The notes below the pieces were generated by a model. It had not been told where the DNA came from, did not search any database, and saw only the letters and a program-made list of their open reading frames with translations. From Gammaproteobacteria bacterium (GTDB lineage: Bacteria; Pseudomonadota; Gammaproteobacteria; Thiohalomonadales; Thiohalomonadaceae): 49,291 nucleotides of DNA. Where the stretch lies: the NCBI GenBank assembly GCA_026196575.1, contig JAPHSX010000042.1, forward strand, positions 1-49,291, in the 5' to 3' direction. Of this stretch, positions 1 to 17,542 are shown one piece after another (position 1 is the first letter of the stretch; the number at the start of each line of letters is the position of its first letter). The position numbers and the translations under genes were made by a program.

Positions 1-49
1 CTGACTTTTAATCAGTTGGTCGCAGGTTCGAATCCCGCACGGCCCACCA
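1..49 (+). tRNA. tRNA-Lys(UUU), 3' part, truncated by the window edge
   Basis: The sequence starts in the anticodon stem. The loop reads CTTTTAA, giving anticodon TTT (Lys). A T-loop TTCGAAT, acceptor strand ACGGCCC, discriminator A and encoded CCA at 47-49 follow. It closely resembles enterobacterial tRNA-Lys. The T stem (GCAGG with CCCGC) contains one A-C mismatch where E. coli has A-T. The 5' half must lie outside the window on the host side. Phage DNA regenerates the 3' end, so the tRNA should stay functional in the lysogen. Confidence 0.85.
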
Positions 50-125: not shown

Positions 126-1250
126 TCACTCTTCTGTCGGCCGCACCCGCGGCACTTCCTGATCGTACACATCCAGCATCTGTTCTGAGCGGTGTCCGCC
201 GCCGTCGAGCTTGGCCTGGCGCCCGCCTTTGGTGCGGGTGATGCCGGCACGCTTGAGGTCGTGGAGGCTGAATCGCTGCTCTTCAGTGATCACCGTGCCC
301 ATGGCGCCGTGAATCATTCGCTGCCAGGCGCTGTCCAGGCTGGAGCGGCTGAGTGGCTCACCTCCTCGGGTGGCGAGGAACAGGTGGCGATCTTCGGGCC
401 GCATTGGTGTCGGCATCTTTCGGCGCTGGATGATGCTGTCTCGCAGTTCAACGGCGGCATCCCAGGCGGTGCGCAGGCGCGGGCCCCACTCGGTGAGGTT
501 GCCGCGCGAGCCCTTGCGGCGGCTGACCTCGACACCTTCCTCGGTGGCGTGGGCATCGGTCAGGGTGATCACCTCAATGCCGCGCAGGCGCAGCAGGTAG
601 GCCAGCTCCATCACCATCCACAGGTAGGGGAAGCCGTTTTCCCTGGCATATTCGAGCACGGCGTTGTAGGTCTGCACGTCAGGGCACCGCCGCTGCTTGC
701 GCTCGGTGGCGGCCTCGATACCTTTGGCCGGGTTTTCTGGCGTGGTGTGACCACGGTTCGCGCCCCAGCGCCAGACGCGGCGCAGCCAGCGCAAGGCGTG
801 GTTGGCGGCGCTTGGGCCTCTCTCTTTGGTGAGCTGGTCTACCAGGCGCTGCACCAGCGGCCTGTCCCAGCGGGATAGGGGGGCATCACCCAGAAGCAGG
901 CCGGCCTTCCTGGTAGGTAGATCGGTGACCATGGCGCGGCAGTATTCATAATCGTCGCGGGTACCCTTGGCCAGCTGGCAGAATTGATCGGAGGCGTGGA
1001 ACTGTTCGGCTACCCAGCGCAGACTGTCGCGTTTGGTGCCGACCTGCTCTTCCAGTGCCCGATGCAGATCGGACATCTTCGCATCACGCCCGGCAATGCG
1101 TTTGCGTCGCTGTTTTCCTGTGCTGTCGCGATAGGCGGTGTACCAGTGGCCGTTGCCGCTCGGATCCCAGTACGCACCGCGCGGCAGTTTGTCCGGGTCT
1201 ATCCCTGGCGGATAGGTTTTAGTGCGGTGACGCCTACGCCCTCTGGTCAC
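126..1250 (-). CDS. int: Phage integrase, tyrosine recombinase family
   Basis: Catalyses integration and excision between the tRNA-Lys attachment sites. The protein has 374 residues, a usual size for phage integrases. The N-terminus (about 1-60) contains an arm-type DNA-binding region (GAYWDPSGNGHWY). The C-terminal catalytic domain shows LRLRG with the first Arg, an HDLKR box (H-x-x-K/R), GGGHRSEQ, and the nucleophile Tyr in MLDVYDQEV. It is the last gene of the leftward operon, ends 72 bp from the att core and overlaps the preceding 72-residue gene by four bases (ATGA-type junction). It is unrelated in detail to the IntI-type recombinase at 7702-8700. The family assignment is secure; the specific attachment partner is inferred from position. 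Confidence 0.93.
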   Translation of the reverse strand: MTRGRRRHRTKTYPPGIDPDKLPRGAYWDPSGNGHWYTAYRDSTGKQRRKRIAGRDAKMSDLHRALEEQVGTKRDSLRWVAEQFHASDQFCQLAKGTRDDYEYCRAMVTDLPTRKAGLLLGDAPLSRWDRPLVQRLVDQLTKERGPSAANHALRWLRRVWRWGANRGHTTPENPAKGIEAATERKQRRCPDVQTYNAVLEYARENGFPYLWMVMELAYLLRLRGIEVITLTDAHATEEGVEVSRRKGSRGNLTEWGPRLRTAWDAAVELRDSIIQRRKMPTPMRPEDRHLFLATRGGEPLSRSSLDSAWQRMIHGAMGTVITEEQRFSLHDLKRAGITRTKGGRQAKLDGGGHRSEQMLDVYDQEVPRVRPTEE

Positions 1251-3828: not shown

Positions 3829-4283
3829 GCTGCCTCCTGCTGCGCCGCGACATCGCGCATCTTCCTGAGGGTTCTGGTGCAGAGGTACGTCACTTCGCAG
3901 TACTGCATGACGCCGCTCAGGACGTCATCGGAGGAGTATGTTTTCCTCCCGTCGCGGCCCGTGTTCGGATCGAAGACCGTGTACCCTTCCGTTCGAGCAT
4001 CGACGACGACACGGTGCAGCTTTCCCTCAAGGTTCAGGCTCGGCACAGTGACCAGGTACACGCCTTCTAGTGCGAATGGGTGAGGGCCATATTCCATGTT
4101 CCGGTATGGCCAGAGCTTGTTCTCGACAAGCACTGTCACCTCCTCATCCATGCTGAGGCCGTGATTGCCGAAACGCTCGATCAGGGATTCGACAGGGATA
4201 CCGGTGATCATCGAGAGGCAAGCATGCACACAGCTGTGCGGCGTGGGCTGCTGGACAAAGGTCACTGAGATTGGATCGCTCAT
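3825..4283 (-). CDS. C39/papain-like cysteine peptidase-fold protein
   Basis: 152 residues. [18 protein letters not shown] places a candidate nucleophile Cys at residue 18. LHRVVVDAR supplies His near 90, and [10 protein letters not shown] supplies Asp near 105. This Cys-His-Asp arrangement is that of C39-like peptidases and of bacteriocin-exporter leader peptidases, but no transporter domain is attached. What it cleaves is unknown; a phage regulator or host protein is possible. It overlaps the rdgC-like gene stop (ATGA) and ends in QEAA carrying the Shine-Dalgarno sequence of the HNH gene. Confidence 0.65.
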
Positions 4284-5437
4284 GCTGCCTCCTGTGGTGC
4301 GAGCACCTCACGCGCTCCATTAGGACGGATCGGGCTGACAATCCCTTCTTGCTCCATCCGCTCAACCAACCTTGCCGATCGGTTGTATCCAATCCTGAGG
4401 CGACGCTGAATGCTTGAGATAGATGCTCTGCGAGTCTCAACAACAATTCGAACGGCTTCCTCGTAGAGCCCGTCATCGTCTGCATCTGGCTCCGTGTAAG
4501 ATGCCGCGTTACTAGCTGGCCTTGTTTCAGACACCTCTACCTGTTCCTCACCACCAAACGCCTGCACCAGGGCATCGACCAGCCGCGCCAGTTCACCGGC
4601 CATCAGCGCGAAGTCGGCGTCGAACCTGTCCGCCTCGGTCTCGGTCTCCACGTCGTCGAGTTCCTGCTTGACGATCTCCTTGAACGCCAGCCGGGTGACG
4701 GTGAGGCCGTCATCGACCATGCACTCGATGCGCTCGTCGTATTCGATGGCGAGCTTGGCGACCTGCATGCCGCCATCGAGGTGGGCGCGAATGGTTTCGT
4801 CGCTCAGCTCGTGGTGGGCGAAGGTTGCCTTGGAGCCTTCCTCGTGCGGGTTGTCGAGGGCGGCGCTGTCTCCCAGGGTGAACGGCTGGTCGATGCGGTC
4901 GTAGAGCCAGCGGGTCATCACCGTGCGCGGGGGCACAGCTGTGGTCAGCGGTTTGACGTGCAGCTCGCCGAGGGTGTCGCGCAGCATGCCCAGGATCTCG
5001 GTGGCCTGGTTCTTGCTGCTGGTGTCGATGATCAGCATCTGCCCCAGTGCATCGTAGTAGAGATAGGTGTCACGGGGTTTCTCGGGGACGTTGGGCAGCA
5101 TGTCGATGATGACCGCCTCCTTGATCTGCTTGCGCTCATTGCGGCCGACGGGGCGCTCCTCGCTCTGTTCCAGTTCGTAGGCCTTTGCGTCTACCTTCTC
5201 ATTAACGGCCGGGGTTGGGATCACCTTCTCGTACTTGCGGGCGCACAACATGGTGCGGCCCATGACGGTGTGCTGGTACAGGCTGCCGCGGCGACCGAGC
5301 GGCGGCCACCATCCGAGGGTGCTGGTCTCGCCGTGCATGCAGGGGCGGGCGGTGCGGCGCTGGCCGGCTATGTCCTGCATGGCGTTGAGGTCGAGCGGCT
5401 GCAGTACGCGGTAGATCATCAGGTTTTTGAAGAACAT
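4280..5437 (-). CDS. rdgC: RdgC recombination protein fused to an FtsK gamma domain
   Basis: 385 residues. About 1-305 follow RdgC: start [20 protein letters not shown] near 42-51, [22 protein letters not shown], then the YLYYDA and LIIDTSS strands. RdgC is a ring-shaped DNA-binding protein that restrains RecA-mediated recombination. Residues about 321-385 ([45 protein letters not shown]) are a near-textbook FtsK gamma winged helix. That is the domain with which FtsK reads KOPS sites and activates XerD. An acidic linker (about 300-322) joins them. E. coli RdgC is about 303 residues and lacks the extra domain. It lies directly after the SbcC-like gene, with a stop/start overlap. Confidence 0.88.
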
Positions 5438-7686
5438 CAGTTGGTCTCCCTGTAGTCGTCCAGGTCGATAACGTGGTCAGCCATCTCCCAGGCGCGTGGG
5501 TTGTGTGAGATGAAAAATTTCCTGCGGTACCCGCCGAGGTCGAGCGCGGCGCGGTCCATGCGGTAGAACTGTTCTTTGCGCTCCTCGGTGAGGCCATCCT
5601 CGGCCTCGTCGGCGAACAGGCATTCGTAGTGCACGCCTGCGGCCTCCTGGTGGTAGAGGCCGACGGCATCGCGCATGGCTTTGTCGAGCCAGACGGTCTC
5701 GCCGCCGGACTTGCGCAGGATGCTCGACTCGACACCGGTCTCGGCATCGATGACGCTGATATCGAACGTCTCCTTCAGCACTCCGTTGGCCTGCTGCTTC
5801 TGGGTGACGATGCGGCAGGTGAAGCGCGGCCCGTAGGCCTCGCGCAGCAGGTGGTTGGCGTGGGCGGCGATGGCCGGTCCCGCGTCCTCGATGCTGAGGT
5901 CAATCACCCCGAGCAGGGCGGCGGCGAGCAGGGTCCACTCGGCGATCTCGGCGTTGATGTGCTCGACCTGCTTCTCCAGGGTGGCGGACTGCTCGAGCTG
6001 GCGGGTCAGGGTGTCGCGTTCGGCCTGCAGGGCGGCGATCTGTGCGTTGGTCTGCTCCACGGCCTGGGCGGCGGCGTTGGCCTGCTGCTCGGACTGCTGC
6101 AGGGTGTTGGCGGCGGCCTGTGCGGCATCCTCCGGGGCGAGTGGGGGGAGGTCGTCGATCTCCCTCTGCACGACGGACTCTGCCTCCTGTGCCTCGGCGG
6201 CGGTCTGCTCGGCGCGTTGTTTCAACTCGGCAAGCTGGCGCTCAAGTTCGGGGGCGCGCTCGGCGGTGGTTTTCACCGCGCCGATCTCGGCGGCCTCGCG
6301 CCGGGAGGTTTCCAGCTGGGCGCGGGTGTTGCGGATCTCCTGCTCCAGCGACAGCATCTGCTCACGTGCGGCGGCGTGCTGACTGCGGGTGGCCTTGACG
6401 GTTTCGAGTTTGGCAGTGAGCTCTGTCCAGCGGGCGCGCTGACTGTCGCGGGCGTGCTCCTCATCGGGCAGGCGATCACCCGCGGCGATGGCGTCCTTGA
6501 GAGCTGGGCAGTCCGGGTAATCGCCGTGGCAGGGGACGGTCTGCACATAGCCGTGGCGCTGCTGCAGTTCCTGACAGGTGGTGGCGTGGCGCTTGCCGGC
6601 ATCGACCACGTGGCGGATCTCCGTCTCCAGTCTGGCCACCTCCGCATCGGCCTGGCGGTACTGCTCCACGTCACCGGCGAGGGCGGTGCGGTTATCCTCC
6701 AGCCCCTGCAGGGTGGCGCTCAGGGTGTCGACCTCTCTGGCGGCGACCTCCAGCAGGGGTAGGCGCACGGCGGCGCGGTGGGCGCTGTCCAGCTCAGGGC
6801 GGATGCGCTGCATGTCAGTGGTGAGCTGCTGCTGCTGGCGGGTACCGGCCTCGCGAGCCTGATAAAGGCGCTGTTGCAGGGCATCAGCCTGGCGGCGGAT
6901 CTCGGCATTCTCCCCGGTAGCCTGGCGTGCCTCGTCGTAACGGCGGCGGGCGTCGGCCATGGCATCGTCGGCGGTGCGCCTGGCGGTGATGAGCTCAGGC
7001 AGTACCGCCTGCTGCTGCTCCAGATCAGGGCCTATTTCGCCGTGGCGGTGGCGCAGCTCGCCGATGCGGTCGATGTCGCTGCGGCGGGCCTCCAGGGCGC
7101 GGCGCAGTTCACGGGTGACGGCCTTGGCCTGGTCTGCCAGGTGCTCGGGCTCCTCGAGGGAGAGGAGGTCGCGCATCAACGCCTTCGGATCGGGGTGGCT
7201 GGCCAGCGGCCGCGCGCCCTGGTGGCGAAACGCGCTCATGTAGTACAGGCTGCGCGGCCCGAGCAGGTGCTCGAGGCAGGCATCATAGGTGGTGTTCTTA
7301 CCATCCGAGGTAGTGCCGTCGGGCATCACGTAGGGTTGCCAGCCGGCATCGTCGGTGTGTGCCAGCAGGGTGGCTTTCATGGATTTCGTTTTCGCTGTCT
7401 GCTTGATGCGGATCTCCGAGCGGTAGCGGCGGCCGCCGTGCTCGAACTCCAGCTCACGGGCCCCGGCCTCGCCGAACTGGGCGTAGATGTCGTCGACGTG
7501 ATCGGGCTCGCGCCACGGGGTCAGGCCGAGGTTGAGCAGGGTAGACTTGCCCATGCCGTTGTCACCGCGCAGGGCAACGGTGACGGCGTCATCAGGCACG
7601 GCGCCCAGGTCGATGGTGACCGTGTCGCGCTTGAGGCCGGCGCGGATACCGATGGCGCCGGTTAGGGTGGTTTTAAGTGGGATCAT
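5437..7686 (-). CDS. SbcC/Rad50-like ABC ATPase with long coiled coil
   Basis: 749 residues. The Walker A motif GDNGMGKST is at 41-49. Long heptad-rich arms run from about 185-365 and 400-590 and are rich in Gln, Ala and Arg. An ABC signature (KSGGE near 655) and Walker B (LFADEAEDG near 690) are followed by an ISHN switch. The apex shows only Cys386 and Cys393 separated by six residues (C-HGDYPD-C), not the usual zinc-hook CxxC. By family it should act with the SbcD-like nuclease encoded at 9886-11118 in DNA end processing. The two partners are separated by the integron island. The start is the ATG behind GAGGAG. Confidence 0.82.
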
Positions 7687-7701
7687 GTTTATATGTTCTC
7701 C

Positions 7702-8700
7702 TCAGTGGATCGTATCGAGTGGGCTGATAACGCTGCTGCCACGATTTAGTACATGGGTGTAGATCTGGGTGGTCTTCACGTCCTTGTGCCCGAGCAACTC
7801 CTGCACCGTGCGGATGTCGTAGCCCTGCTCCAGCAGATGTGTGGCGAACGAATGGCGCAGGGTGTGGGGGTGCGCCAGTTTGCTGATTCCGGCAGCACGA
7901 ACAGCCTGCTTCATTGCCCGCTGAATGTTGCGCTCGTTCCAATGGTGGCGACGATAGGCCCCTGTGCGCGGGTCGGTGGAGTAGGTAGGCGCCGCGAACA
8001 GGTACTGCCACGCCCACTCACTACCGGCGCGCGGGTATTTACGCTCGATGGCGTTGGGCAGCTCGACATCGGCATGACCGGCAGCCAGATCCTCATCGTG
8101 CCAGCGGCGACGCTGTGCGATGTGATCGCGCAGGAGATCCACCAGGCTGGACGGCAAAACAGTGACACGATCCTTTCCGCCCTTACCTGCCCGCACGGTG
8201 ATGCTGCGGGAGTCGAGATCGACATCCTTGATGCGCAGCCGCAGGCACTCCATGATGCGCATGCCGGTGCCGTAGAGTAGGTTGATGATCAGCCCGTTCG
8301 TGCCGCTGACGTGGCGCAGTAGCGCCGCCGTCTCAGAGCGGGTCAGAACCTCCGGCAACTTCTTGCGGTCCTTCGCACGGGTTACACCATCGAGCCATGG
8401 CAGTTCGATGCCGAGCACGCGCTGATACAAGAAGAGTAGCGCCGCCAGTGCCTGGTTCTGTGTGCTGGCGGATACGCGCCGCTCCACCGCCAACCAGGAG
8501 AGAAACGCCTCCACCTCCGGCGCGCCCATGTCAGCCGGGTGGCACTTGCCGTGCCACAGGATGAACTGCTTCACCCAGCTGCAATATGTGCGCTCGGTAC
8601 TGAGGCTGTAGTGGCGCGTGCGGATTGCCGCGCGCACCCTATCCATAAGGCGCAGCCCCTGCGGTTGAGGTGTCGCGTTTGATTCCGTTGCGTTTTGCAT
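7702..8700 (-). CDS. intI: Integron integrase (IntI family tyrosine recombinase)
   Basis: 332 residues, the usual IntI length. Catalytic residues: R148 (GTGMRIME), K173/K176 (GKGGKDR), H279 and R282 (HTLRHSF), H305 (LLGHKDV), Y314 (QIYTHV). The integron-specific extra segment that separates IntI from XerC/D is present at about 213-252 (LPNAIERKYPRAGSEWAWQY, then DPRTGAYRRHH). The C-terminus (VLNRG, SPLD) is also typical. IntI recombines attI and attC sites to insert or excise gene cassettes. Everything needed looks intact. It is transcribed leftward like the surrounding phage genes, with RBS CGGAGA, and an attI-like site and attC sites lie directly upstream (8761-9583). I see no LexA box at its promoter. 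Confidence 0.93.
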   Translation of the reverse strand: MQNATESNATPQPQGLRLMDRVRAAIRTRHYSLSTERTYCSWVKQFILWHGKCHPADMGAPEVEAFLSWLAVERRVSASTQNQALAALLFLYQRVLGIELPWLDGVTRAKDRKKLPEVLTRSETAALLRHVSGTNGLIINLLYGTGMRIMECLRLRIKDVDLDSRSITVRAGKGGKDRVTVLPSSLVDLLRDHIAQRRRWHDEDLAAGHADVELPNAIERKYPRAGSEWAWQYLFAAPTYSTDPRTGAYRRHHWNERNIQRAMKQAVRAAGISKLAHPHTLRHSFATHLLEQGYDIRTVQELLGHKDVKTTQIYTHVLNRGSSVISPLDTIH

Positions 8701-8767
8701 TTTCGCGGTCTCCGTGGTTGTTGTGGTGTGTTATGCGACAGTGGGTGTCGTATAAGAGGAGTTAGCT
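8701..8767 (+). other. attI: attI-like region between intI and the first cassette
   Basis: The recombination core is GTTAGCT at 8761-8767, the junction where cassette 1 begins. A near-perfect hairpin, TTATGCGACA at 8731-8740 with TGTCGTATAA at 8746-8755, lies just inside. The placement next to the intI start codon is that of attI. No second R'' box is seen upstream, as expected for attI rather than attC. The site is called from the core and its complementarity with the attC1 R'' box, not from similarity to a known attI. Confidence 0.65.
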
Positions 8768-9025
8768 TGCGCGAGGCGCAGCGTTCCACACATCAATCGC
8801 AAGCTTTCGCGCTTCTTCAGAAATAAGCGCATGTCCTTTTGTTGGGAATTCAATTACCCATTCTCCGCAACATCCAGGTGTTGCCGTCGCGAACATCATT
8901 CCGTGTCCAGAATATTGCAGCTCAAATCCAGGAGGGATCTTCCCGCATGGGCAAGCTAACAAAGCACTGCACTCGGACTCACCTACTACGGCGGCTTGTT
9001 CTGGTTGTGCGGTTTCGTTCGTCAT
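8762..9025 (-). CDS. Cassette 1 protein: small zinc-ribbon (Lar-like), reversed ORF
   Basis: 87 residues. After a short leader the sequence reads LLACPCGKIPPG, then TPGCCGEWVIEF, and ends EARKLAIDVWNAAPR. This is the CxC...CC...ILWN-like plan of phage Lar/restriction-alleviation-type zinc proteins. The first 24 residues are encoded inside attC1. The stop codon TAA is the complement of the first bases of the cassette (8762-8764). The ORF points toward intI, opposite to usual cassette genes but along the phage early transcript. RBS ACGGAGA. Lar-type function is only suggested by motif outline. Confidence 0.7.
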   Translation of the reverse strand: MTNETAQPEQAAVVGESECSALLACPCGKIPPGFELQYSGHGMMFATATPGCCGEWVIEFPTKGHALISEEARKLAIDVWNAAPRAS

Positions 9026-9070
9026 ATCGTTTCTCCGTCTTCGTTCCCGGTGAGCCCGTGAGTTATCTCG
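8762..9070 (+). mobile_element. Integron gene cassette 1
   Basis: 309 bp between the attI core (G at 8761 | TTAGCT) and the attC1 cleavage point (G at 9070 | TTATGC). The first ten bases counted from 8761, GTTAGCTTGC, are exactly complementary to GCAAGCTAAC at 8951-8960, which holds the R'' box of its attC. In a circularised cassette, R' (GTTAGCT) and R'' (AGCTAAC) would match 7 of 7. That is the hallmark of an excisable cassette. Confidence 0.78.
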
Positions 9071-9076
9071 TTATGC
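8954..9076 (+). other. attC: attC site 1, 123 bp
   Basis: R'' is AGCTAAC (8954-8960), followed after a five-base spacer by an L'' of seven bases, ACTGCAC (8966-8972). On the right, L' is GTGAGT (9058-9063) and R' is GTTATGC (9070-9076). L'' pairs with L' perfectly once its fourth base (G) is left out, which is the extrahelical base expected in an attC hairpin. GACTCACC further in pairs with GGTGAGCC. The length equals that of attC2 and is close to that of Vibrio VCR sites. The site also encodes the start of the cassette 1 ORF on the other strand. Confidence 0.75.
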
Positions 9077-9280
9077 GCCGTGATCGCTCAGTGTTTCCGA
9101 CTGAACCGCAGCCAGCGTTTTGCCGTGGATGCAGTTGCAGAAAACGATTGCGTAGCCTTCGGCGAAACGGTCGTCAAAAACAACTTTTTCACCGGTATCC
9201 CGGCATTGGTCGCATAACAAAACGCTAGAGTCGCGACCCGCTAAAGCCGTGCCGGTTTCTGGTGTCGTGGTTTCATTCAT
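9071..9280 (-). CDS. Cassette 2 protein: small Cys-rich protein, reversed ORF
   Basis: 69 residues. The first 23 (MNETTTPETGTAL, then GRDSSVLLC) are encoded by attC2 and resemble the attC1-encoded leader. A CDQC pair and a CNC pair could form a small zinc site; the C-terminus is acidic. The stop codon is the complement of TTA at 9071-9073, the first bases of the cassette. RBS ACGGAGA lies in attC2. No family is recognised. Not essential-looking; could be a phage accessory protein. Confidence 0.62.
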   Translation of the reverse strand: MNETTTPETGTALAGRDSSVLLCDQCRDTGEKVVFDDRFAEGYAIVFCNCIHGKTLAAVQSETLSDHGA

Positions 9281-9328
9281 CTCTCGTGTTCTCCGTGCCT
9301 TCGTTGTCGCGGGCCGCTCAGCTAATCG
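9071..9328 (+). mobile_element. Integron gene cassette 2
   Basis: 258 bp between G9070|TTATGC and G9328|TTATGT. The start GTTATGCG (9070-9077) is complementary to CGCATAAC (9211-9218), the R'' end of its own attC, so R'/R'' again match fully in the circular form. It contains one short ORF on the minus strand. Confidence 0.76.
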
Positions 9329-9334
9329 TTATGT
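9212..9334 (+). other. attC: attC site 2, 123 bp
   Basis: R'' GCATAAC (9212-9218), spacer AAAAC, L'' GCTAGAG (9224-9230); L' CTCAGC (9317-9322), spacer TAATC, R' GTTATGT (9328-9334). Leaving out the fourth base (A) of L'' gives exact pairing with L', the same extrahelical position as in attC1. The two sites are equal in length and share internal blocks such as TAACAAA, GGTTTC and TTCTCCGT, so they belong to one attC family. Confidence 0.78.
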
Positions 9335-9540
9335 GTATTAGGTCTGCACCCTCGCCTGCCGGATGGATAGTCCGGCGACCCACAGTACGCGCTTTTCAGC
9401 GTCCATCGTCCTCGGGGTGCAAGTAATGGAATCTCGCTCAGGCTCCCGCCCCACGGAGGATGCAGACCTAATACACATAACCCGTCACTCCAGTCGACCA
9501 GCCGCCGCGTGGCGGCTTCTTGTTCATCGGTTTCGCTCAT
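9322..9540 (-). CDS. Cassette 3 ORF, uncertain
   Basis: 72 residues. The first 22 (MSETDEQEAATRR, VDWSDGLC) are encoded by attC3 and are alignable with the leaders of the two other cassette proteins. The remainder lies across a perfect 21-bp inverted repeat and reads Pro/Gly-rich sequence with little protein character. It runs seven bases past the cassette edge into attC2 before stopping. RBS GGAGATCGAGAAG. It may be a degraded gene or the DNA may act through its structure; low confidence that it makes a functional protein. Confidence 0.4.
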   Translation of the reverse strand: MSETDEQEAATRRLVDWSDGLCVLGLHPPWGGSLSEIPLLAPRGRWTLKSAYCGSPDYPSGRRGCRPNTHND

Positions 9541-9577
9541 CTTCTCGATCTCCTATACTGCGTCTGTCTATACACTG
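9329..9577 (+). mobile_element. Integron gene cassette 3, with 21-bp inverted ends
   Basis: 249 bp between G9328|TTATGT and G9577|TTACAT. The ends of its body, 9328-9348 and 9461-9481, are perfect 21-base inverted repeats (starting GTTATGTGTATTAGG). In circular form this would lengthen the attC3 stem well beyond R'/R''. Inside are further short hairpins, for instance GCCGGA/TCCGGC around 9360-9375. Confidence 0.68.
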
Positions 9578-9583
9578 TTACAT
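9475..9583 (+). other. attC: attC site 3, 109 bp, right arm diverged
   Basis: R'' ACATAAC (9475-9481) is perfect against the cassette's own R' GTTATGT. The array-side R' is GTTACAT (9577-9583). The internal block GGTTTCGCTCATC aligns with the same block in attC1 and attC2. The L boxes pair poorly (ACTCCAG with CTGTCT), so this terminal site is probably decayed or was built on phage sequence. Confidence 0.5.
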
Positions 9584-9886
9584 CAATGCCGCCAGCGCAT
9601 GCTGATAGGCTGGCCGGTCAATCCCAAGCGGCTGCGGCTCATTCACCAACTCTTCCAGTGCCAGGCGCAGTTGCTCCAACTCACGCTCCATGCTGCGCAC
9701 CATTACGCAGGCGGCGTCGAACGGTGCGGCACTCTCTTCCAGGAGTTCACTTGCCTTTTTCTCAGTGGTGTCACCATTGCTTAATAGCTCACGCCCGAGC
9801 ATTCCCAATATTTCCGCTTTGGTGAGTCCTTCATCCTCATCGATGTCGCCATCTGCCGGGATTAATAAAAACCGTTCCTGTTGCAT
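9578..9886 (-). CDS. Hypothetical acidic coiled-coil protein
   Basis: 102 residues from ATG 9886. Overlaps the stop of the SbcD-like gene (TGATG), so it belongs to the phage operon. Acidic N-terminus (DGDIDEDEGLTKAEI), then helical sequence ending SMERELEQLRLALEEL. No family recognised. Its stop codon is the complement of TTA at 9578-9580, immediately at the right edge of cassette 3, the same arrangement as in cassettes 1 and 2. No further R'' box matching GTTACAT was found to its right, so I do not call it a cassette. Confidence 0.6.
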   Translation of the reverse strand: MQQERFLLIPADGDIDEDEGLTKAEILGMLGRELLSNGDTTEKKASELLEESAAPFDAACVMVRSMERELEQLRLALEELVNEPQPLGIDRPAYQHALAALM

Positions 9887-11118
9887 CACGCGGCCTCCCT
9901 CTTCTCTTCCTCATCACGCCCCAGCAGGTGATCAATGATCTGCTCAGGCTCCATCGTCTGTAGCATTTCAAGCCGACTCTCAAGACCATCAAGCCGGTGT
10001 TCGTCGCCGGTGGTGGCTGCCCAGTATCCGAGCTTCTCGTGCAGGGTCATGGCGCGCCCGATGCCGCTGGCACGGATGGACTGCACGGGGTAGACGGTGG
10101 CCTCGATGCGCACGTCACCGGCGGCGGTGAACATCTCGCGGATGGCGTCCTTGTCGATGGTGTGGGCGTGGTCCTGGTCGATCTCGTAGCGGATACGCAC
10201 GTGGTGCATGTCGCTGGTGTACTGACCTGCCAGGCGACGCAGTTCGTCAATGTCGGGCGGGCCGTCGAAGGTGATGTCGATGAGCTCACGCGCCGGGGTG
10301 GGATGGAACTTGAACGCGGCTGAGTTGGCGTCCACCTCCCACAGCAGGAAGCCGACCGGGTCGTGGTGGCCGTGCACCAGGCGGGCGACGCTTCCGGAGT
10401 AGGCGATCAAGCGCCCGTTGTCCTGCCAGGACTGGTGTTTGTGGATGTGATTCAACATAGTGGCCTGCGCCTGTGCCTGGTACAGGGTGCCGACACTGAA
10501 CTCGTGATCGGGCGAGACCATGGCGTAGTTGCTCTCGGTGACGCAGCCGCTCACGGTGCCGTGGGAGACCAGCACGGTGGGGATGCCTGCTGCGCGTGCC
10601 TGGTCGTTGGTCTGACCCCATGAAGAGAGCAGGTCAGCGACATAACCAGCGGCGCCGTGTGCGTGCTCGCGGATCTCGGTGGATGCCTTGTTGAGGGATG
10701 GGAGGCATGAGAAGACGGCTCGATCAGTGCGCAGCGGTACGGTGTCGGCACCAACCCTGTCCCACGTCATCACACCGTCTTCATGCAGAATCCACTGCCC
10801 AGGCTCATCAGCCACCAGAATCGGGTATCTGGCACGCAGGCGCTTCAGCGGCTCCAGGCTACCCAGGCGATCATGGCTGAATGTACCCTGCAGGATGAGC
10901 AGGGGCATGGCGTCGGCCAGCTGCAGCATCAGTTCCAGATACCTGGCGAACGCAGGCTCATGTACGTGCATGGCTGAGTCGAATGAGTCGCCGGCGATAA
11001 CGGCTACTTCCGCGCCATCGGCGATGGCTTGCTCGACCGCGTAGGTCATGCAGCGATCTACCTGCTCCAGATGTTTCTGGCAAAAATGTAAATCGCCGGT
11101 GTGGAAAATCTTAATCAT
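9886..11118 (-). CDS. SbcD/Mre11-like metallophosphoesterase
   Basis: 410 residues. Calcineurin-type motifs in order: HTGDLHF (8-13), VIAGDSFDS near 43, GTFSHDR near 82, LVSHG near 185, and HIHKH near 227. The third motif normally reads GNHD; here the Asn is replaced and only SHD remains, so metal coordination may differ. In the SbcCD complex this subunit cuts DNA ends and hairpins. The predicted partner SbcC-like ATPase is encoded about 2.2 kb further on, beyond the integron. RBS CGGAGGCAAT precedes ATG. Confidence 0.82.
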   Translation of the reverse strand: MIKIFHTGDLHFCQKHLEQVDRCMTYAVEQAIADGAEVAVIAGDSFDSAMHVHEPAFARYLELMLQLADAMPLLILQGTFSHDRLGSLEPLKRLRARYPILVADEPGQWILHEDGVMTWDRVGADTVPLRTDRAVFSCLPSLNKASTEIREHAHGAAGYVADLLSSWGQTNDQARAAGIPTVLVSHGTVSGCVTESNYAMVSPDHEFSVGTLYQAQAQATMLNHIHKHQSWQDNGRLIAYSGSVARLVHGHHDPVGFLLWEVDANSAAFKFHPTPARELIDITFDGPPDIDELRRLAGQYTSDMHHVRIRYEIDQDHAHTIDKDAIREMFTAAGDVRIEATVYPVQSIRASGIGRAMTLHEKLGYWAATTGDEHRLDGLESRLEMLQTMEPEQIIDHLLGRDEEEKREAA

Positions 11119-11138
11119 ATTGCCTCCGTTAAAAATAA

Positions 11139-11183
11139 CCTTGCCTCGCCTCGCCTTGCCTTGCCTTGCCTAGCCGCGCCAGG
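11139..11183. repeat. Pentanucleotide tandem repeat (CCTTG/CCTCG)n
   Basis: Six clean units of CCTTG or CCTCG run from 11139 to 11168, followed by three decayed units (CCTAG, CCGCG, CCAGG). They lie in the leader between the RDF-like gene and the SbcD-like gene, about 20 bp upstream of the latter. A five-base repeat outside a reading frame could vary by slippage. It would then alter the leader length rather than a protein. Confidence 0.8.
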
Positions 11184-11192
11184 CGTTAAAAC

Positions 11193-12527
11193 CTAGAACG
11201 GCGCTCCCTTGCCGCTTGCCGCTGCGGCCTGTTGCTCCTGCACCGGCGGCAGGATGTGGGTGGTGTCGCCGCTCTGGGTGGCCTCGGTCAGTCGGGTGAT
11301 CGCCTCGTCGAGGGCCTCCATGTTGGTGGACCACTCGTCCCCGAGGTCGGCGCTCATGCGCTCACCAAACAGCTTGGCGTCGATGCCGAGTTTCTTGACC
11401 AGTGCGAAGGCCTCGGCGCGCAGGGCTTTTACGATGTCCTTGGTGTTGTCGGCGGTGGGTGCTGCGGAGGCTGCCGGCGTGGGCTCGGCGGCCTGCTCCT
11501 GCTCGATCTCTACCTCACCCTGCAGCTCGCCGTGGGTCTCCTCCATAAGCTCGCCGGTACCGGGTGCCTCGCGCTCTTCGTTGGAGAGATCGGGCAGGGC
11601 GCCGCTGCTCTTCGCCGGGGCGGCCAGCTGCGGTGCGGTGCCCATTTCCTGCTGCGCGAACACCTGCGCCATGTCCAGGCCGCGGGCCTCGATGCTGATG
11701 ATGTACTGGTCGGTGCGCTCGGCCTTGCCCTTCTCCCAGTCGATGCGGCTGACCTCCTGGCGGCGCTTGCTGATCCAGAAGATCGGCTCGCCGTTGTGGG
11801 TGCCCTTGATGTGGCCGAGGCCGTGGTGCACCAGCTCCAGCACCTCGCCGATGCCGAGGCTGGCGTAGATGGAGGTGAACTGCAGCTCGATGAGGCCAAC
11901 ACCGGGGCAGCCTGGCACGTAGAAGTAGAGGCTGCCGTGGTGCATGCAGTTGCCGTTGCCGAAGACGTCGCAGCCGTTCGGGTCACAGGGGCCGACGGTC
12001 TCCACGGGGCGACCACCCCAGCGCTTGCGGCGAGTCTTGTCGGCGGTGATCTCCTGGCGCTTCTTGCACAGCAGCTCGCCGGTCTGCGGGTCGGGCTCTG
12101 ACCAGAACGACAGCTCGCTGGCCTTCCATGCCTCGAATCCTTCACGGAAGATGAGGTTCAGGTCATCGGCTGGGAAGATCACCGGGAAGGTGTAGAGCAG
12201 GCCGTCCTTCGGATCGGCGTAGCGCTGGAGGATCGCCTCGGCAGCGCCGGGTGTGGTGAAGTCATCCGGCACCACGCGGAAGTAGGGGGCGTTGCGCGGA
12301 GTGAGCGGGTAGGCGGGCATGCCGCTGATCTGTTTCAGGCGCTTCTCGATGTCGTCGAAGCTGACCCCGGCGGCGAGGCCGTCGTTGTAGGCTTGCTGTG
12401 CTCCATGGATGGCGCGGGCCTTGGCGGTCAGCACCTTGATGCCGGGGCGGATCTTTCCGGCAACCGGCAGACGCTGCGCCTGGGCGGCGCGGGCACCGTG
12501 GAGGGTTGAGTGGACGTGTGCGGACAT
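11193..12527 (-). CDS. Gp3-like / recombination-directionality-factor family protein
   Basis: 444 residues. The core (about 60-290) has RVVPDDFTTP, YTFPVIFPADDLN, KRWGGRPVETVGPCDPNGC, a later Cys with His pair (NGNCMHHG), LYFYVPGCPGVGLIEL and FTSIYASLG. This plan, with a small Cys/His zinc site, fits the Gp3-like family (phiC31 Gp3 type). Gp3 turns serine integrases toward excision. This phage has a tyrosine integrase, so a direct RDF role is doubtful. Homologues in recombination operons may act as DNA-binding or annealing factors. The C-terminus (about 300-444) is acidic and Ala-rich, probably flexible. It stands in line with SbcD- and SbcC-like genes. Family call moderate, function open. 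Confidence 0.6.
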   Translation of the reverse strand: MSAHVHSTLHGARAAQAQRLPVAGKIRPGIKVLTAKARAIHGAQQAYNDGLAAGVSFDDIEKRLKQISGMPAYPLTPRNAPYFRVVPDDFTTPGAAEAILQRYADPKDGLLYTFPVIFPADDLNLIFREGFEAWKASELSFWSEPDPQTGELLCKKRQEITADKTRRKRWGGRPVETVGPCDPNGCDVFGNGNCMHHGSLYFYVPGCPGVGLIELQFTSIYASLGIGEVLELVHHGLGHIKGTHNGEPIFWISKRRQEVSRIDWEKGKAERTDQYIISIEARGLDMAQVFAQQEMGTAPQLAAPAKSSGALPDLSNEEREAPGTGELMEETHGELQGEVEIEQEQAAEPTPAASAAPTADNTKDIVKALRAEAFALVKKLGIDAKLFGERMSADLGDEWSTNMEALDEAITRLTEATQSGDTTHILPPVQEQQAAAASGKGAPF

Positions 12528-12557
12528 GGTGTCTCCTATATCTAGTTGGTGAGGGGC

Positions 12558-13034
12558 TCAGGCGGCCCGTCGGGTGATTTCTGCGGCGATCTCGCTGAGC
12601 TTCTCTGCCACCTCGGGGTGCATCGCGGGCCAGTTGGCCAGCTCCTGCAGGATGGCGGCGCTGCGCGTGGCGTCGGGAAACGGTTCCGGTACCGGCAGGC
12701 TGCGCACAGCGGCAATGAGCGGGTCTTCGCTGGTCGCCTTGGCCGGCGCGCCGCTGCCAAGGCGCGGGATCTCTCTGATGGCAGCCCTGATGGTGGTCGG
12801 ACGCGGCGCGGCGGCGGGCTCTTTTTCCGGTACACCGTCGGGGACAAAGGCCCACAGCCCCAGCGTCATCTTCTCCACCAGTCCGCGCTTTAGCAGGCGG
12901 TTCAACGCGGTGGAGATCTGACCGACATCCCCGGCAAGCGCACACTCGGCAAATATATCTGCCCTGCCCATCGGCTTGTCCGCCCCTTCCAGCGCGACGA
13001 GAACCTCGTCTTCAATCTCTTGCGTGAGACTCAT
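12558..13034 (-). CDS. Winged-helix-like small protein
   Basis: 158 residues. The N-terminal 65 residues (LTQEIEDEVLVALEGADK, FAECALAGDVGQISTALNR, LLKRGLVEKMTLGLWAF) have the helix pattern of a winged helix. That is followed by a Pro/Ala linker and a second helical part. A DNA-binding or regulatory role is likely but the target is unknown. It lies second to third from the promoter end of the left operon. Confidence 0.55.
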   Translation of the reverse strand: MSLTQEIEDEVLVALEGADKPMGRADIFAECALAGDVGQISTALNRLLKRGLVEKMTLGLWAFVPDGVPEKEPAAAPRPTTIRAAIREIPRLGSGAPAKATSEDPLIAAVRSLPVPEPFPDATRSAAILQELANWPAMHPEVAEKLSEIAAEITRRAA

Positions 13035-13036
13035 GA

Positions 13037-13273
13037 TCAGGCCGCTGCCGGGGGTTCTGGGTTGTAGTCGTCGTGCTGCGGCGTTGGCCAGGTGCTCACC
13101 ACCTTTCCGCCCTGCCCAAAGCGGGCGGCGTTGCGCAGCGCCTGCAGGCGTTCGTGGTGCGGCGTCAGCAACACGGTGCGGCCGTTGACGGTGGCGGGCT
13201 TGAGGCCCATACGCCGTGCCAGGCTGTCGATGTCGATGACCTTGCAGGTCGGTAATACATGGATCTCACACAT
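13037..13273 (-). CDS. Hypothetical small early protein
   Basis: 78 residues (MCEIHVLPTCKVIDIDSLAR). Contains a SLARRMGLKPATVNGRTVLLTP segment that could be a short helix-turn-helix or substrate-recognition helix. C-terminus Pro-rich. Separated by two bases from the winged-helix gene. No known family. Confidence 0.55.
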   Translation of the reverse strand: MCEIHVLPTCKVIDIDSLARRMGLKPATVNGRTVLLTPHHERLQALRNAARFGQGGKVVSTWPTPQHDDYNPEPPAAA

Positions 13274-13288
13274 GGTTATCTCTCCCGG

Positions 13289-13519
13289 TTACGCCCCTAC
13301 AACGAGGCCTTTCGGATACACCGTGGCGATCAGGATTGGATCATCACTGGCAGGATTGGCGCCCACGCCCAGCGAGATAGACTCGCCGTAGCAGCGCCAG
13401 TTATCGGTATCGACGAACCCGGCACTGCTCACCTCGCGACCCATGGCGGCATCGCTGTGGGCCATCCAGTCAGGGAACAGGATGATGGTCGGCTCGCCTT
13501 TGAAGCGGATGTATTTCAT
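13289..13519 (-). CDS. Hypothetical small early protein
   Basis: 76 residues from ATG 13519 (MKYIRFKGEPTIILFPDWM). Predicted beta-rich, with hydrophobic strands TIILF and ILIATVYP. Starts within the stop codon of the gene upstream (ATGA), which argues for translation as part of the operon. No family recognised. Confidence 0.6.
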   Translation of the reverse strand: MKYIRFKGEPTIILFPDWMAHSDAAMGREVSSAGFVDTDNWRCYGESISLGVGANPASDDPILIATVYPKGLVVGA

Positions 13520-13764
13520 GCGGCCACCTCCGCCACAGGCTGCCAACTGATAGCACCAGCCGACTCATTGCCGCCAGTCGCACGATAGGCGCCGCCGCTG
13601 CGCGTGATGGCGATGCAGCCAGGACACCAGCTCTCCGGGTTGCACAGTTCGTTGACCCATCCCTGAGGCGCGCCGTCGTGGAAGACGATCAAGCCGTAGT
13701 TGGGCAGGTTCCATGACTCGCGGTACTCCTCGGCGAGTTCCATGAGCTGTGTCAGGTTTTTCAT
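13516..13764 (-). CDS. Hypothetical early protein, first gene of the left operon
   Basis: 82 residues from ATG 13764 (MKNLTQLMELAEEY). Carries the Cys-containing stretch NELCNPESWCPGC, a possible metal site or disulfide. A TTG further upstream would add nine residues but has no better ribosome site. About 110 bases separate it from the promoter at 13873-13901. Ends AEVAA, with GGAGG for the next gene inside these codons. Confidence 0.55.
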   Translation of the reverse strand: MKNLTQLMELAEEYRESWNLPNYGLIVFHDGAPQGWVNELCNPESWCPGCIAITRSGGAYRATGGNESAGAISWQPVAEVAA

Positions 13765-13872
13765 TGGTTGTTCTACCTGTTGTTTCGCCAACCACCCAGA
13801 GGACTACGCCAAAGGCCAGTTGCTGTTGTCACCGGTACCGGCCGTGGCGCGGTTGTGTTTGGTGATGGGGAG

Positions 13873-13915
13873 AATATACGCCAGCGTATACACGCAGTCA
13901 ATACGCTGGCGTATA
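13873..13915 (-). promoter_or_regulatory. Early-left promoter PL with two repressor operators
   Basis: On the minus strand TTGACT (13896-13901) and TATATT (13873-13878) are separated by exactly 17 bases, a near-consensus sigma-70 promoter firing into the left operon. Two 16-bp palindromic operators overlap it: 13875-13890 (TATACGCCAGCGTATA) over the -10 box and 13900-13915 (AATACGCTGGCGTATA) over the -35 box, 25 bp apart. The same motif occurs three times between repressor and Cro (17226-17293). This is an OL/OR arrangement like that of lambda. Confidence 0.85.
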
Positions 13916-13972
13916 TATTTTTTTAGCGGTCTACTTGTGAGAGCATTGGTGTCAGGACAAGGGGTGAGACAT

Positions 13973-14569
13973 ATGGAGAGAAATGGATCTGGTGATGGTG
14001 CAACAGTGTCGCCGCAGGCGCAGTGGGCTGGGTATGAGTGCCCAAAGTGTGGGTATCGACGTACGCCAACCGAAACGGCCTCTGTGCAGATGTGCCCAAG
14101 TTGCGGGGCATACTACGCCAAGGTAGGAAAAAGGGTTGCAACAGGGCATGAAGGGGTGGGGCCGCGCAAGGGGCCGACTGTTAAACCACAGCAGCTGTGG
14201 TTTGGGCAGAAGCCGCGCGAACTCATTGTCGGCATGGTCTCACTGATATTTTTACTGTTCCTTGCTTCGCGCTTTGGTGGTGATAGTGTCAGCGCCGAAC
14301 AGAAGGCGGCAAGTCAGGCACAAAGGGATCGCGAAAAGGCAGCCAAACACCTCTGTGCCGCGCAGGCCAAGGCATCAGCGGCTTACCCTGGCACGGTCGA
14401 TGTTCATTGGTTCCAGGGGGTGTTTGCTGAGCCCTATAATGACGGCATCACTCTTGTGAAGATGGACTTTACTGCTAAGAACGCCTTCGGTGCCGAGCTA
14501 CCGTTTCTCATCACCTGCCTGGTAAACCATGCTGGTGAGGTTGTGTCATCAAGGGTGAGTAAGCGTTAA
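13973..14569 (+). CDS. Zinc-ribbon membrane protein, probable lysogenic-conversion gene
   Basis: 198 residues from ATG 13973. Residues about 20-45 (YECPKCGYRR and MCPSCGAYY) form a CxxC...CxxC zinc ribbon. A transmembrane segment lies near 95-110 (IVGMVSLIFLLFLASRF). A domain after it is rich in Lys/Ala and ends with YNDGITLVKMDFTAKNAFG and a Cys. Zinc-ribbon plus one membrane helix is frequent in host proteins of unknown role. It is read opposite to the adjacent left operon, just beyond the PL operators. No function known. Confidence 0.65.
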   Translation: MERNGSGDGATVSPQAQWAGYECPKCGYRRTPTETASVQMCPSCGAYYAKVGKRVATGHEGVGPRKGPTVKPQQLWFGQKPRELIVGMVSLIFLLFLASRFGGDSVSAEQKAASQAQRDREKAAKHLCAAQAKASAAYPGTVDVHWFQGVFAEPYNDGITLVKMDFTAKNAFGAELPFLITCLVNHAGEVVSSRVSKR

Positions 14570-14584
14570 ATTGGAGCTATCTTC

Positions 14585-14740
14585 ATGGAAGAGTCTCAAG
14601 AGATCAGGGAGCTGAAGGCGTTGCTCTACAGGGCGGAACAGCAGAAAGAGGATCCGGAGTCACGCATTGCGGCGGGATACTTCCGGCAGCTACTGGATAG
14701 ACGAAAGGAACAGGACGCACAGAAGGAGAAGGCGCAGTGA
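14585..14740 (+). CDS. Very small charged protein
   Basis: 51 residues (MEESQEIRELKALLYRAEQQ), almost wholly helical and charged, ending KEKAQ. It is placed between two plus-strand genes with a 15-base gap upstream and overlaps the next start by GTGA, which indicates translational coupling. No family recognised. Confidence 0.55.
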   Translation: MEESQEIRELKALLYRAEQQKEDPESRIAAGYFRQLLDRRKEQDAQKEKAQ

Positions 14741-15225
14741 AAAGAGTAACCCTATTTATCGCACTCTGCACAACGGCCGGCATGGCAAGTGGCGCAGTCT
14801 ACCGCTGCGAGGTGGAGGGGCAGATAACGTTCTCGCAAACACCCTGTGCCGCCAATGCCCAGGAGTACCAGGTTGACTACATCAAGCCCAACGCCGACCA
14901 TGCCGCAAGGATGAGTGAGCAGACACAGAGCTCGGCGGCGGCGGTGGCGGCCTCACAGACTGAGCGGGAGATCCGTAGTCAGGGGCTGGCGATTAAGGAC
15001 GAGGAGGCGAATATCAGGGTGCTACAGTCGCGCCGCGATAAAGAGCTGGCCGCGTTGCGCAGCAAGAAAAACCTCGCCAACAACAATCTGGCCGGGGCCA
15101 CGTGGGAGCAGAGTATCTCTGACGAGATGAACGCGGTGAATGGCCGGTATGATGCCCAGATCAGTGAGAAGCAGACGAATATCCAGCGAATGAGTGAGCA
15201 GATCGACCGGCTGCGTAGTCAGTGA
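14737..15225 (+). CDS. DUF4124-type periplasmic protein with signal peptide
   Basis: 162 residues from GTG 14737 behind AAGGAGAAGG. Signal peptide MKRVTLFIALCTTAGMASGA with cleavage near 20. Then VYRCEVEGQITFSQTPC, the signature of DUF4124 (two Cys likely disulfide-bonded), and a long charged helix to the end (KDEEANIRVLQSRRDKELAAL). An exported, envelope-located product is expected. Together with the zinc-ribbon membrane gene upstream it may alter the cell surface of the lysogen. Confidence 0.72.
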   Translation: MKRVTLFIALCTTAGMASGAVYRCEVEGQITFSQTPCAANAQEYQVDYIKPNADHAARMSEQTQSSAAAVAASQTEREIRSQGLAIKDEEANIRVLQSRRDKELAALRSKKNLANNNLAGATWEQSISDEMNAVNGRYDAQISEKQTNIQRMSEQIDRLRSQ

Positions 15226-16806: not shown

Positions 16807-17217
16807 CTAACGATTTTTTTTTGATAAAGTCTCGACGGTGCTCGTGACAAAGGCCAGATCATCTTCTGTGAGATCTCCGCTTGCACTTTTTTTGCTGATA
16901 ACCGAGATCAGCGCCTTGGCAGCGGCAGGCATAACCCGCCAGGCATCTTCTGATATGCCAAGAGGGCGTTCTGACCACGTGGAGATGTCTGGCGGGGGGA
17001 GGTGGGCGTGCACTTTGGCCTCTGCAACACTTCCATAGCTCTCGCCAACCGCTATAGCAAGTTGCGCCAACGTATCCGACTTAGGGTTCTTCGTCTCACC
17101 CCTGGTGATTCGGTTTATAGTTGGTTGTGGCACGCCAGAGCGCTGCGCAAGCACATACTCCGTGATTCCATGGCGTTTTAGTAAGTCTTTCAGCCACTTC
17201 GCATAGTTTGTTTCCAT
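16807..17217 (-). CDS. CI-like prophage repressor, short form
   Basis: 136 residues from ATG 17217. Helix-turn-helix at about 10-55 (LLKRHGITEYVLAQRSGVPQ and INRITRGETKNP). There is no Ser/Lys autopeptidase domain, so RecA-driven self-cleavage is not expected; induction must work another way, perhaps an antirepressor. The ATG lies just six bases after a perfect -10 (TATAAT on the minus strand, 17224-17229), so the mRNA is probably leaderless, as for lambda cI from PRM. Three operators lie in the 85-base gap to the Cro-like gene. Confidence 0.85.
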   Translation of the reverse strand: METNYAKWLKDLLKRHGITEYVLAQRSGVPQPTINRITRGETKNPKSDTLAQLAIAVGESYGSVAEAKVHAHLPPPDISTWSERPLGISEDAWRVMPAAAKALISVISKKSASGDLTEDDLAFVTSTVETLSKKNR

Positions 17218-17302
17218 CAGGGCATTATACGGGCGCGTATATTCATAATGTAATAACGCCAGCGTATTGCTTTGGTGTATGCGTTGGCGTATATTCTTTG
17301 GC
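17218..17302. promoter_or_regulatory. OR region: three operators and divergent promoters PRM and PR
   Basis: Three 16-bp operators lie at 17226-17241 (TATACGGGCGCGTATA), 17253-17268 (ATAACGCCAGCGTATT) and 17278-17293 (TATGCGTTGGCGTATA), spaced 27 and 25 bp. The consensus with the two left sites is roughly TATACGYYRGCGTATA. PRM (leftward) has TATAAT at 17224-17229 and a weak -35, typical of a promoter needing activation. PR (rightward) has TTGCTT at 17267-17272 and TATATT at 17290-17295, 17 bp apart. Both transcripts would start at or next to the ATG. Confidence 0.82.
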
Positions 17303-17542
17303 ATGAACATTTCAACTCGCGAGAAATTGCTACGGCTGAAAGCCGGTGGCATGAGGATTACAGAGGTTGCTGAGCGCTCTGGCATACCTCAACCAACCCT
17401 CAGCCGCATTATTAACGGTAAACACTCCAGTCCGCTTGAGCGCACCGTTCAGGCCGTTGATGCGATTTACCAAGAAGTAATTAAAGCCACCTCGGGCCAC
17501 GCCGCCCCGTGCGGCTCTGGCGAGACCAAGGAGGCGGCGTAG
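17303..17542 (+). CDS. Cro-like regulator
   Basis: 79 residues from ATG 17303. Helix-turn-helix at about 8-50 (LLRLKAGGMRITEVAERSGI, PQPTLSRIINGKHSSPLERT). Its recognition helix (PQPTLSRI) is nearly the same as that of the repressor (PQPTINRI), so both should read the same five operators. It is transcribed divergently from the repressor from PR, with little or no leader. No ribosome site is visible, in line with leaderless translation. Ends KEAA. Confidence 0.82.
   Translation: MNISTREKLLRLKAGGMRITEVAERSGIPQPTLSRIINGKHSSPLERTVQAVDAIYQEVIKATSGHAAPCGSGETKEAA

Follow-up and report, generated by a model that had tools for sequence, protein, structure and literature searches.

The window, as we term the whole stretch of DNA analysed here, is contig C17 (JAPHSX010000042.1; 49,291 bp) of the 2.74 Mb genome of a gammaproteobacterium belonging to the Thiohalomonadaceae (assembly GCA_026196575.1), and it carries an integron among the genes of a prophage. 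The order is SbcC-like gene, integron integrase gene (intI), attI-like site, three cassettes and SbcD-like gene (Table 1). Prophage genes in the window include those for a phage integrase, a repressor-like protein (16807-17385), helicase, primase, terminase, portal, head protease, major head and tape-measure proteins, and the frames taken as genes from 13791 down to 126 are all on the minus strand. An earlier note on this DNA had placed the integron inside a prophage, and that position is borne out by the minus-strand gene stretch, by the SbcC-like and SbcD-like flanks and by a separate integrase gene (126-1250) beside a tRNA end. Throughout, C-numbers refer to contigs of a genome and L-numbers (L008, L010 and so forth) are labels for the loci compared.

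Table 1. Features of the integron and its surroundings in the window (ORF, open reading frame).
Feature	Position	Strand	Evidence
intI, integron integrase, 332 aa	7702..8700	-	TIGR02249 458 bits (cut-off 265); 70-73% identity to viral L010-L016
attI-like site, inverted CGACA..TGTCG followed by ..AGTT; expected crossover between G and TT, 8761/8762	8731..8763	+	alignment of 12 regions; blast to L130 and L025
Cassette 1, ends GTTAGCT/AGCTAAC	8762..9070	+	sequence and cassette rule
Reversed ORF of cassette 1, 87 aa; attC1 contains its ribosome site and start codon	8762..9025	-	no Pfam or PHROG match
attC1, 123 bp	8954..9076	+	R2 25.7 bits, E 1.2e-4; R1 17.1 bits, E 0.022
Cassette 2, ends GTTATGC/GCATAAC	9071..9328	+	sequence and cassette rule
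Cassette 2 ORF, 69 aa, reversed; start inside attC2	9071..9280	-	nothing in PHROG at 0.1; a single weak Pfam row, below its cut-off
attC2, 123 bp	9212..9334	+	R2 25.6 bits, E 1.3e-4; R1 no match
Cassette 3 body, terminal inverted repeat 9328-9353 / 9456-9481	9329..9481	+	sequence
Cassette 3 ORF, 72 aa, doubtful gene	9322..9540	-	no family match
Half attC3, R''-L'' side only	9475..9553	+	R2 9.6 bits, E 1.9 window-wide
ORF of 103 aa, right border of array	9578..9889	-	no family match
SbcC/Rad50-like gene, left neighbour of integron, same strand	5437..7686	-	phrog_77 E 1.5e-32
SbcD-like gene, right neighbour, same strand	9886..11118	-	TIGR00619 E 4.5e-10 (below its cut-off); phrog_100 E 1.3e-9
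Tyrosine integrase of the prophage itself	126..1250	-	phrog_1 E 5.2e-28
3' part of tRNA at contig end, likely attachment site	1..46	+	RF00005 32.2 bits and sequence

The intI product belongs to the integron integrase family, as the note had supposed: TIGR02249 scores it at 458 bits against 193, 167 and 160 bits for the XerA, XerC and XerD models respectively. The gene is intact, having no internal stop, and the residues R148, K173, H279, R282, H305 and Y314, which we take to be the catalytic residues of the family, all fall in invariant columns of an 11-row alignment. The translation also contains the segment ELPNAIERKYPRAG, presumably the integron-specific extra segment.

The sites bounding the cassettes were assessed with two covariance models, R1 built from 29 attCs of bacterial loci and R2 from 122 attC matches in 31 phage-type related sources, the window excluded. 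Over the 49 kb window R2 ranked attC1 first and attC2 second, with borders exactly as first noted and hence the same 123 bp lengths; the third proposed site failed this search, so that two of the three attCs originally claimed score as such and one does not. The single unpaired base that had been described at the same L-box position of both full sites was likewise not recovered, R2 placing an extra L-box base in attC2 alone. Complementarity between each cassette start and its own R'' box stood in all three cases, with GTTAGCT/AGCTAAC (8761/8954), GTTATGC/GCATAAC (9070/9212) and GTTATGT/ACATAAC (9328/9475) being exact reverse complements at seven of seven bases. The first 25 bases of attC1 agree at 24 positions with an attC of a Halothiobacillus contig (L029). 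Stems of the R2 set covary, with pairing in 87.3% of cells (shuffles, 71.8%) and 314 double-change cells (shuffles, 125), in an alignment that was fitted to the model structure and therefore favours pairing. At E<=0.1, R1 produced 41 rows from 13 sources (ten viral loci, L024, L025 and a stretch of the host), all on the strand of canonical polarity; it also returned 187 rows in 40 bacterial loci, L027 included, while another 53 sources, mostly viral, contributed 118 rows, of which 114 are on the canonical-polarity strand. Locus L017 has four attC matches at 11592-13020, on the 3' side of intI, besides the usual upstream site. The attI-like core that the note had placed next to intI has a similar counterpart in each of 12 aligned intI-upstream regions (the L027 row being cut short), and blast matches the window attI region to the corresponding region of L130 and L025.

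All three ORFs of the window array lie on the minus strand, reversed with respect to attC polarity and co-directional with intI and the phage operon. Their starts fall inside attC1, attC2 and the half site, with alike first residues (MTNET, MNETT and MSETD), and both attC1 and attC2 hold a ribosome site together with the start codon. The terminal inverted repeat of cassette 3, at 26 nt and 96% complementarity, exceeds what the cassette rule requires. A weak consensus scan of positions 4000-15000 found no plus-strand sigma-70-like site that might represent the integron promoter Pc, and all three ORFs face intI; since bacterial integrons too contain some reversed-gene cassettes (16 of 194, see below), the window is retained as an integron variant in spite of this.

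The relationships of IntI point towards phages. The window IntI shares 50% identity with the IntI that the host itself encodes on contig C29 and 61% with the best one in the other 19 host-family genomes, while the first viral scan yielded proteins at 70-73% (L010-L016). Among 80 bacterial loci kept from 166, 78 do not exceed 65% identity, the others being L024 (70%) and L025 (71%). A search with an alignment as query brought the viral intI loci to 58, including those found earlier. In a FastTree phylogeny of 140 rows (53 viral including the window, and 87 bacterial; 8 rows with identical proteins left out) the window IntI falls in a clade of 35 rows, comprising 32 viral rows, the window included, with L024, L025 and L027 (support 89), which is joined by two Nevskiaceae chromosomal integrons with support 95. 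A quick IQ-TREE of 99 rows unites the window and nine relatives in one 10-row clade (support 99), and in both trees the IntI of phage and host occupy different parts. A second tyrosine recombinase lies near intI in each of L024, L025 and L027, and the intI locus of L025 adjoins a tRNA synthetase gene; these three may be prophages or remnants, and none of them showed a structural phage gene. The genome containing L025 (G385) encodes a second IntI, apparently frameshifted, on contig C27 outside the prophage region. The FastTree analysis also contains a second all-viral clade (L157-L165 and L167-L169; support 99), whose 12 IntI-like proteins have 49-56% identity with the window IntI; this clade lacks a convincing attC array, R1 matches being found in L167 alone and on the other strand. 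Locus L121 (Virus Rctr41k) has an IntI-like gene behind small same-strand genes, and neither R1 nor a separate finder detected an attC there.

Cassette turnover is evident among relatives. Three groups of contigs share intI and attI DNA without mismatch over 1070, 1124 and 1130 bases, and in all three the sequences diverge directly after the attI GTT into different first cassettes. L133, L134, L135, L136 and L141 have three different first cassettes between them and part directly after ..GAATTTAAGTT; L147 (identical to L149) and L148, as well as L144 and L145, diverge at the same attI point. Identity of approximately 100% resumes beyond the arrays, for 7,171 bp between L133 and L136, whose arrays measure about 2.75 kb and 0.36 kb, and for 8,562 bp between L144 and L145. 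Similar cassette stretches also occur in different phages (L011 and L147, 89% over 467 bp; L133 and L147, 86% over 923 bp). Because contigs with identical intI and attI part at the attI crossover in every group, we read the pattern as attI x attC exchange that the relatives would be undergoing in nature.

The reversed orientation of the window ORFs is general among relatives. Cassettes were classed by ORF direction in viral-type loci (viral contigs with L024, L025 and L027) and bacterial-type loci (35 bacterial loci with L166), the window being left uncounted, and the main count required a ribosome site. It drew on all 41 rows of the first R1 set (L008 and L015 gave none), on 185 of the 187 bacterial rows (two L106 rows out) and on 114 of the 118 further rows (four plus-strand rows out); L149 was dropped for having the same array as L147, L166 (16 used rows, canonical genes) was moved to the bacterial and L027 to the viral type after the trees, and a further four viral and three bacterial rows were skipped by position or length. 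L018, L154, L156 and L172 were counted as viral though they stand outside the 35-row clade or on its long branches. Locus L166 is an IMG/VR contig filed as viral that resembles a chromosomal integron, with many uniform attCs. Since reversed ORFs can end inside attI or the preceding attC, borders were wider in this count than in a first, cruder one. The 132 cassettes of 36 viral-type loci comprised 95 reversed, 1 canonical, 32 none and 4 ambiguous, against 16, 74, 102 and 2 respectively for the 194 cassettes of 36 bacterial-type loci (Fisher p 1.2e-34, reversed vs canonical, with cassettes within one array not being independent). Counted by locus, at least one reversed cassette was present in 31 of 36 viral-type and 13 of 36 bacterial-type loci, and a canonical cassette in 1 and 30 respectively. 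Reversed starts lie at a median of 24 nt from R'', and 12 of 95 are inside the attC, as in the window.

A control from protein families agrees with this orientation. The family scans used 89 of the 96 reversed or ambiguous ORFs of other loci, which with the 3 of the window make 92, and at E 0.001 these hit 67 PHROG families; when the longest canonical-direction ORF is taken from each of the same 89 cassettes, 74 reach 40 aa and none matches PHROG. In L138, the ORFs at 1690-1941 and 1931-2188 have a near-identical 20-residue start (KDHKAAAEPPLDCRVG), and this shared beginning suggests that an attC may encode a leader peptide.

The cargo of these arrays is partly recognizable. Pfam assigned 15 families (E 0.001) among the 92 cassette ORFs, including the PAPS reductase domain (4), Lar restriction alleviation (3), N6/N4 methylase (2), Dam (2), C5 methylase (2), DHH (2) and Mom (1), along with an exonuclease-like protein, one weak Acb2/Tad1 hairpin (E 5e-4) and others; when curated cut-offs were rechecked, one of the three Lar matches lay above its threshold and Mom lay above its own. 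Methyltransferases, Lar and Mom shield phage DNA against restriction, and their presence suggests a counter-defence role for the cassettes of relatives.

From these observations we consider it highly probable that the integron of this prophage belongs to a mainly phage-borne lineage, with reversed cassettes and attI-attC exchange. In the mechanism that we propose, IntI would recombine attC with the attI adjoining the 5' end of its gene, in the manner of bacterial integrons, a step to which the exact attI breakpoints point in relatives and which we infer for the window phage. The cassettes would be inverted, the attC standing at the 5' end of the gene, such that the ORFs aim at attI and intI; the phage operon would then read cassettes and intI as one unit, with no need of Pc. 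A consensus scan gave a single minus-strand sigma-70-like site, at 13901-13873, a number of sites not above chance. New cassettes would enter at the attI next to intI, and because this is the end farthest from the operon promoter, the newest cassette should be transcribed last. The operon transcript would have the sequence of the attC bottom strand, and IntI would recombine the non-template strand; a start codon inside the attC would mean that the attC supplies translation signals and a short leader. The array could so serve as the phage's exchangeable store of accessory genes, probably including many for counter-defence, as its relatives indicate. A same-strand phage integrase gene comes after intI in L012, L013, L016, L025 and L142, and this puts the array of those loci in the integration region. 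An RdgC-like protein encoded at 4280-5437 in the window carries an FtsK gamma domain at its C-terminus.

Several results weigh against this interpretation. R1 places attC1 first in the window with a weak score and misses attC2, attC3 is a half site, and the folding energies of the three window sites were no better than those of shuffles (minus-strand z 0.27, 0.35 and -0.56); support for the window attCs hence comes from the models and not from stability, and these sites may be weak. The window cassette ORFs have no credible match in Pfam, PHROG or phage searches: ORFs 1 and 2 gave none against phages at E 0.01, and a resemblance of the cassette 1 ORF to Lar is by eye. As to the lineage, 21 of the 53 viral rows fall outside the 35-row FastTree clade, 12 of these making up the second all-viral clade, and the prophage nature of L024 is unsure, two points that slightly lower our confidence in the main reading; the viral contigs, moreover, are predictions, with phage genes checked in a subset of them. 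The contrast in orientation is weaker without the ribosome-site rule, at 70 reversed, 18 canonical, 37 ambiguous and 7 none for viral-type cassettes against 9, 150, 19 and 16 for bacterial-type, and in the cruder first count, with tight borders and no ribosome-site rule, the reversed ORF was the longer in 16 of 35 cassettes. Finally, genome, viral, primase and megablast scans found no near relative of the window phage. No relative emerged from scans of viral sequences for SbcC and SbcD, a primase scan gave 23 loci of which none exceeded 40% best-segment identity, and megablast of window positions 1-25000 against phages gave zero matches; SbcC was present in one of 20 host-family genomes, its own, a class-wide scan of 369 genomes found IntI at E<=1e-130 in the own genome only, and an order-level scan around the genome of L025 was positive in 3 of 399 genomes, one being that genome. 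Turnover in the window phage is, since no near relative was found, something we infer from the other loci.

Some of these results would also be expected had the window integron belonged to the same lineage and since lost its function, leaving an intact IntI beside a frozen array whose attCs are decaying and whose cassettes are retained as plain phage genes. The half site at attC3, the low or absent R1 scores and the folding energies fit such a history, as do the doubtful ORF and odd long inverted repeat of cassette 3, and the array may indeed be partly decayed. Set against this are an IntI without internal stop that keeps the invariant residues, two sites that the relatives' model R2 recognizes as whole, and cassette starts matching R'' at seven of seven bases in all three cassettes; we judge loss of function to be unlikely, if not negligibly so. 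A related concern is that prophage recombination captured an integron of the host chromosome, as was proposed for Vibrio anguillarum phage p16 (PMC9892861). Besides such published precedents, the host does possess its own intI on C29, with attC matches on C4 and C31. We rejected capture from that integron in view of the 50% identity between phage and host IntI, their separate places in the trees, the same-strand phage-type genes on both flanks and the reversed window cassettes, unlike the phage integrons of Shewanella and Vibrio, in which all or most of the annotated upstream genes point away from intI. Capture of a host chromosomal integron consequently seems to us improbable.

Two further readings dispense with a functional integron. 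IntI might be the integration enzyme of the phage and the repeats its attachment sites, and the 12-row viral clade of IntI-like proteins with almost no attC matches shows some affinity with this idea; it is contradicted by the separate integrase beside the tRNA end in the window, by the co-directional phage integrase genes lying downstream of intI in L012, L013, L016, L017, L025, L142 and L147, and by the existence of attC arrays with turnover, on which grounds we rejected it as very improbable. That the pattern arose from chance repeats and a stray recombinase could be argued from the shortness of the R boxes and fold z-scores near zero, but the two best R2 matches in 49 kb occur at the predicted borders and on the predicted strand, with E-values of 1.2e-4 and 1.3e-4, and the attI region and attC arrays are common to relatives. 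We rejected such a coincidence as scarcely credible, and an integron of a mainly phage-borne lineage, with reversed cassettes, is the reading that we retain.

Integrons are known as bacterial gene stores, and phage-borne examples in print have been read as captured pieces. A phage-centred lineage with its own attI, reversed cassettes and turnover would, if true, make the integron a device of phage adaptation; it would allow the acquisition and exchange of accessory and counter-defence genes by phages to be tested directly in genomes, and would indicate a route by which cassettes are read without Pc. More broadly, temperate phages may own a dedicated lineage of inverted integrons, that is, swappable libraries of phage genes, many for counter-defence, with the attC 5' of each gene and at times giving its start and leader, expressed from phage transcripts, with the displaced non-template strand as the recombining attC strand, mirroring chromosomal anti-phage integrons and allowing co-infecting phages to trade cassettes; we regard the chances of this wider proposal as evenly balanced.

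The earlier note had presented a phage as a new vehicle for cassettes, a claim that we withdraw, as phage-borne integrons and the idea of phages moving cassettes were already published by Qi et al. 2023 (PMC9892861), whom an editorial (PMC10556736) cites. According to that paper, temperate phages contain three complete integrons and one In0, alongside 17 clusters of attC sites lacking integron integrases (CALINs), and the integrons are pieces of host or class 1 integrons, the IntI of Shewanella M16-3 being 95.3% identical to one from a Shewanella chromosome. Five methyltransferase cassettes are named in it, and the help against restriction proposed for them is a prior source of the counter-defence idea. 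Its main text describes neither a phage-centred IntI lineage nor reversed arrays, and a phage-centred lineage with inverted cassettes was not found in the literature that we searched; preprints and most subscription journals lie beyond that literature, hence a claim of first report would not be safe.

Comparison with known systems places the window integron as follows. Sedentary chromosomal integrons of Pseudomonadota (L058 of Nitrococcus, L087 of Rhodanobacter, and the sister rows L063 and L069) resemble it in IntI family, in an attI at the 5' end of intI, in attC polarity and in the R and L boxes, but differ in that most of their called cassette genes face away from attI (74 canonical, 16 reversed) and in not being known from phage operons, the flanks of the bacterial loci being unannotated in our comparison. 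The Treponema integrons described in PMC3607928 likewise have intI and the cassette genes pointing the same way, but in them transcription of intI runs towards attI and the cassettes come next, whereas in the window the cassettes are transcribed towards attI and intI comes next. The integrons that PMC9892861 reports from Vibrio p16 and p42, an E. coli P1 transconjugant and Shewanella M16-3 likewise reside in temperate phages, with methyltransferase cassettes and a proposed counter-defence role, but their IntI is 46-55% identical to that of the window, and all or most of the annotated genes next to intI point away from it. The CALINs of virulent phages in the same paper share phage cassettes borne by attC and differ in having no IntI of their own. 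The lineage to which the window belongs is different from the published captured host or class 1 integrons and from the integrase-less attC clusters.

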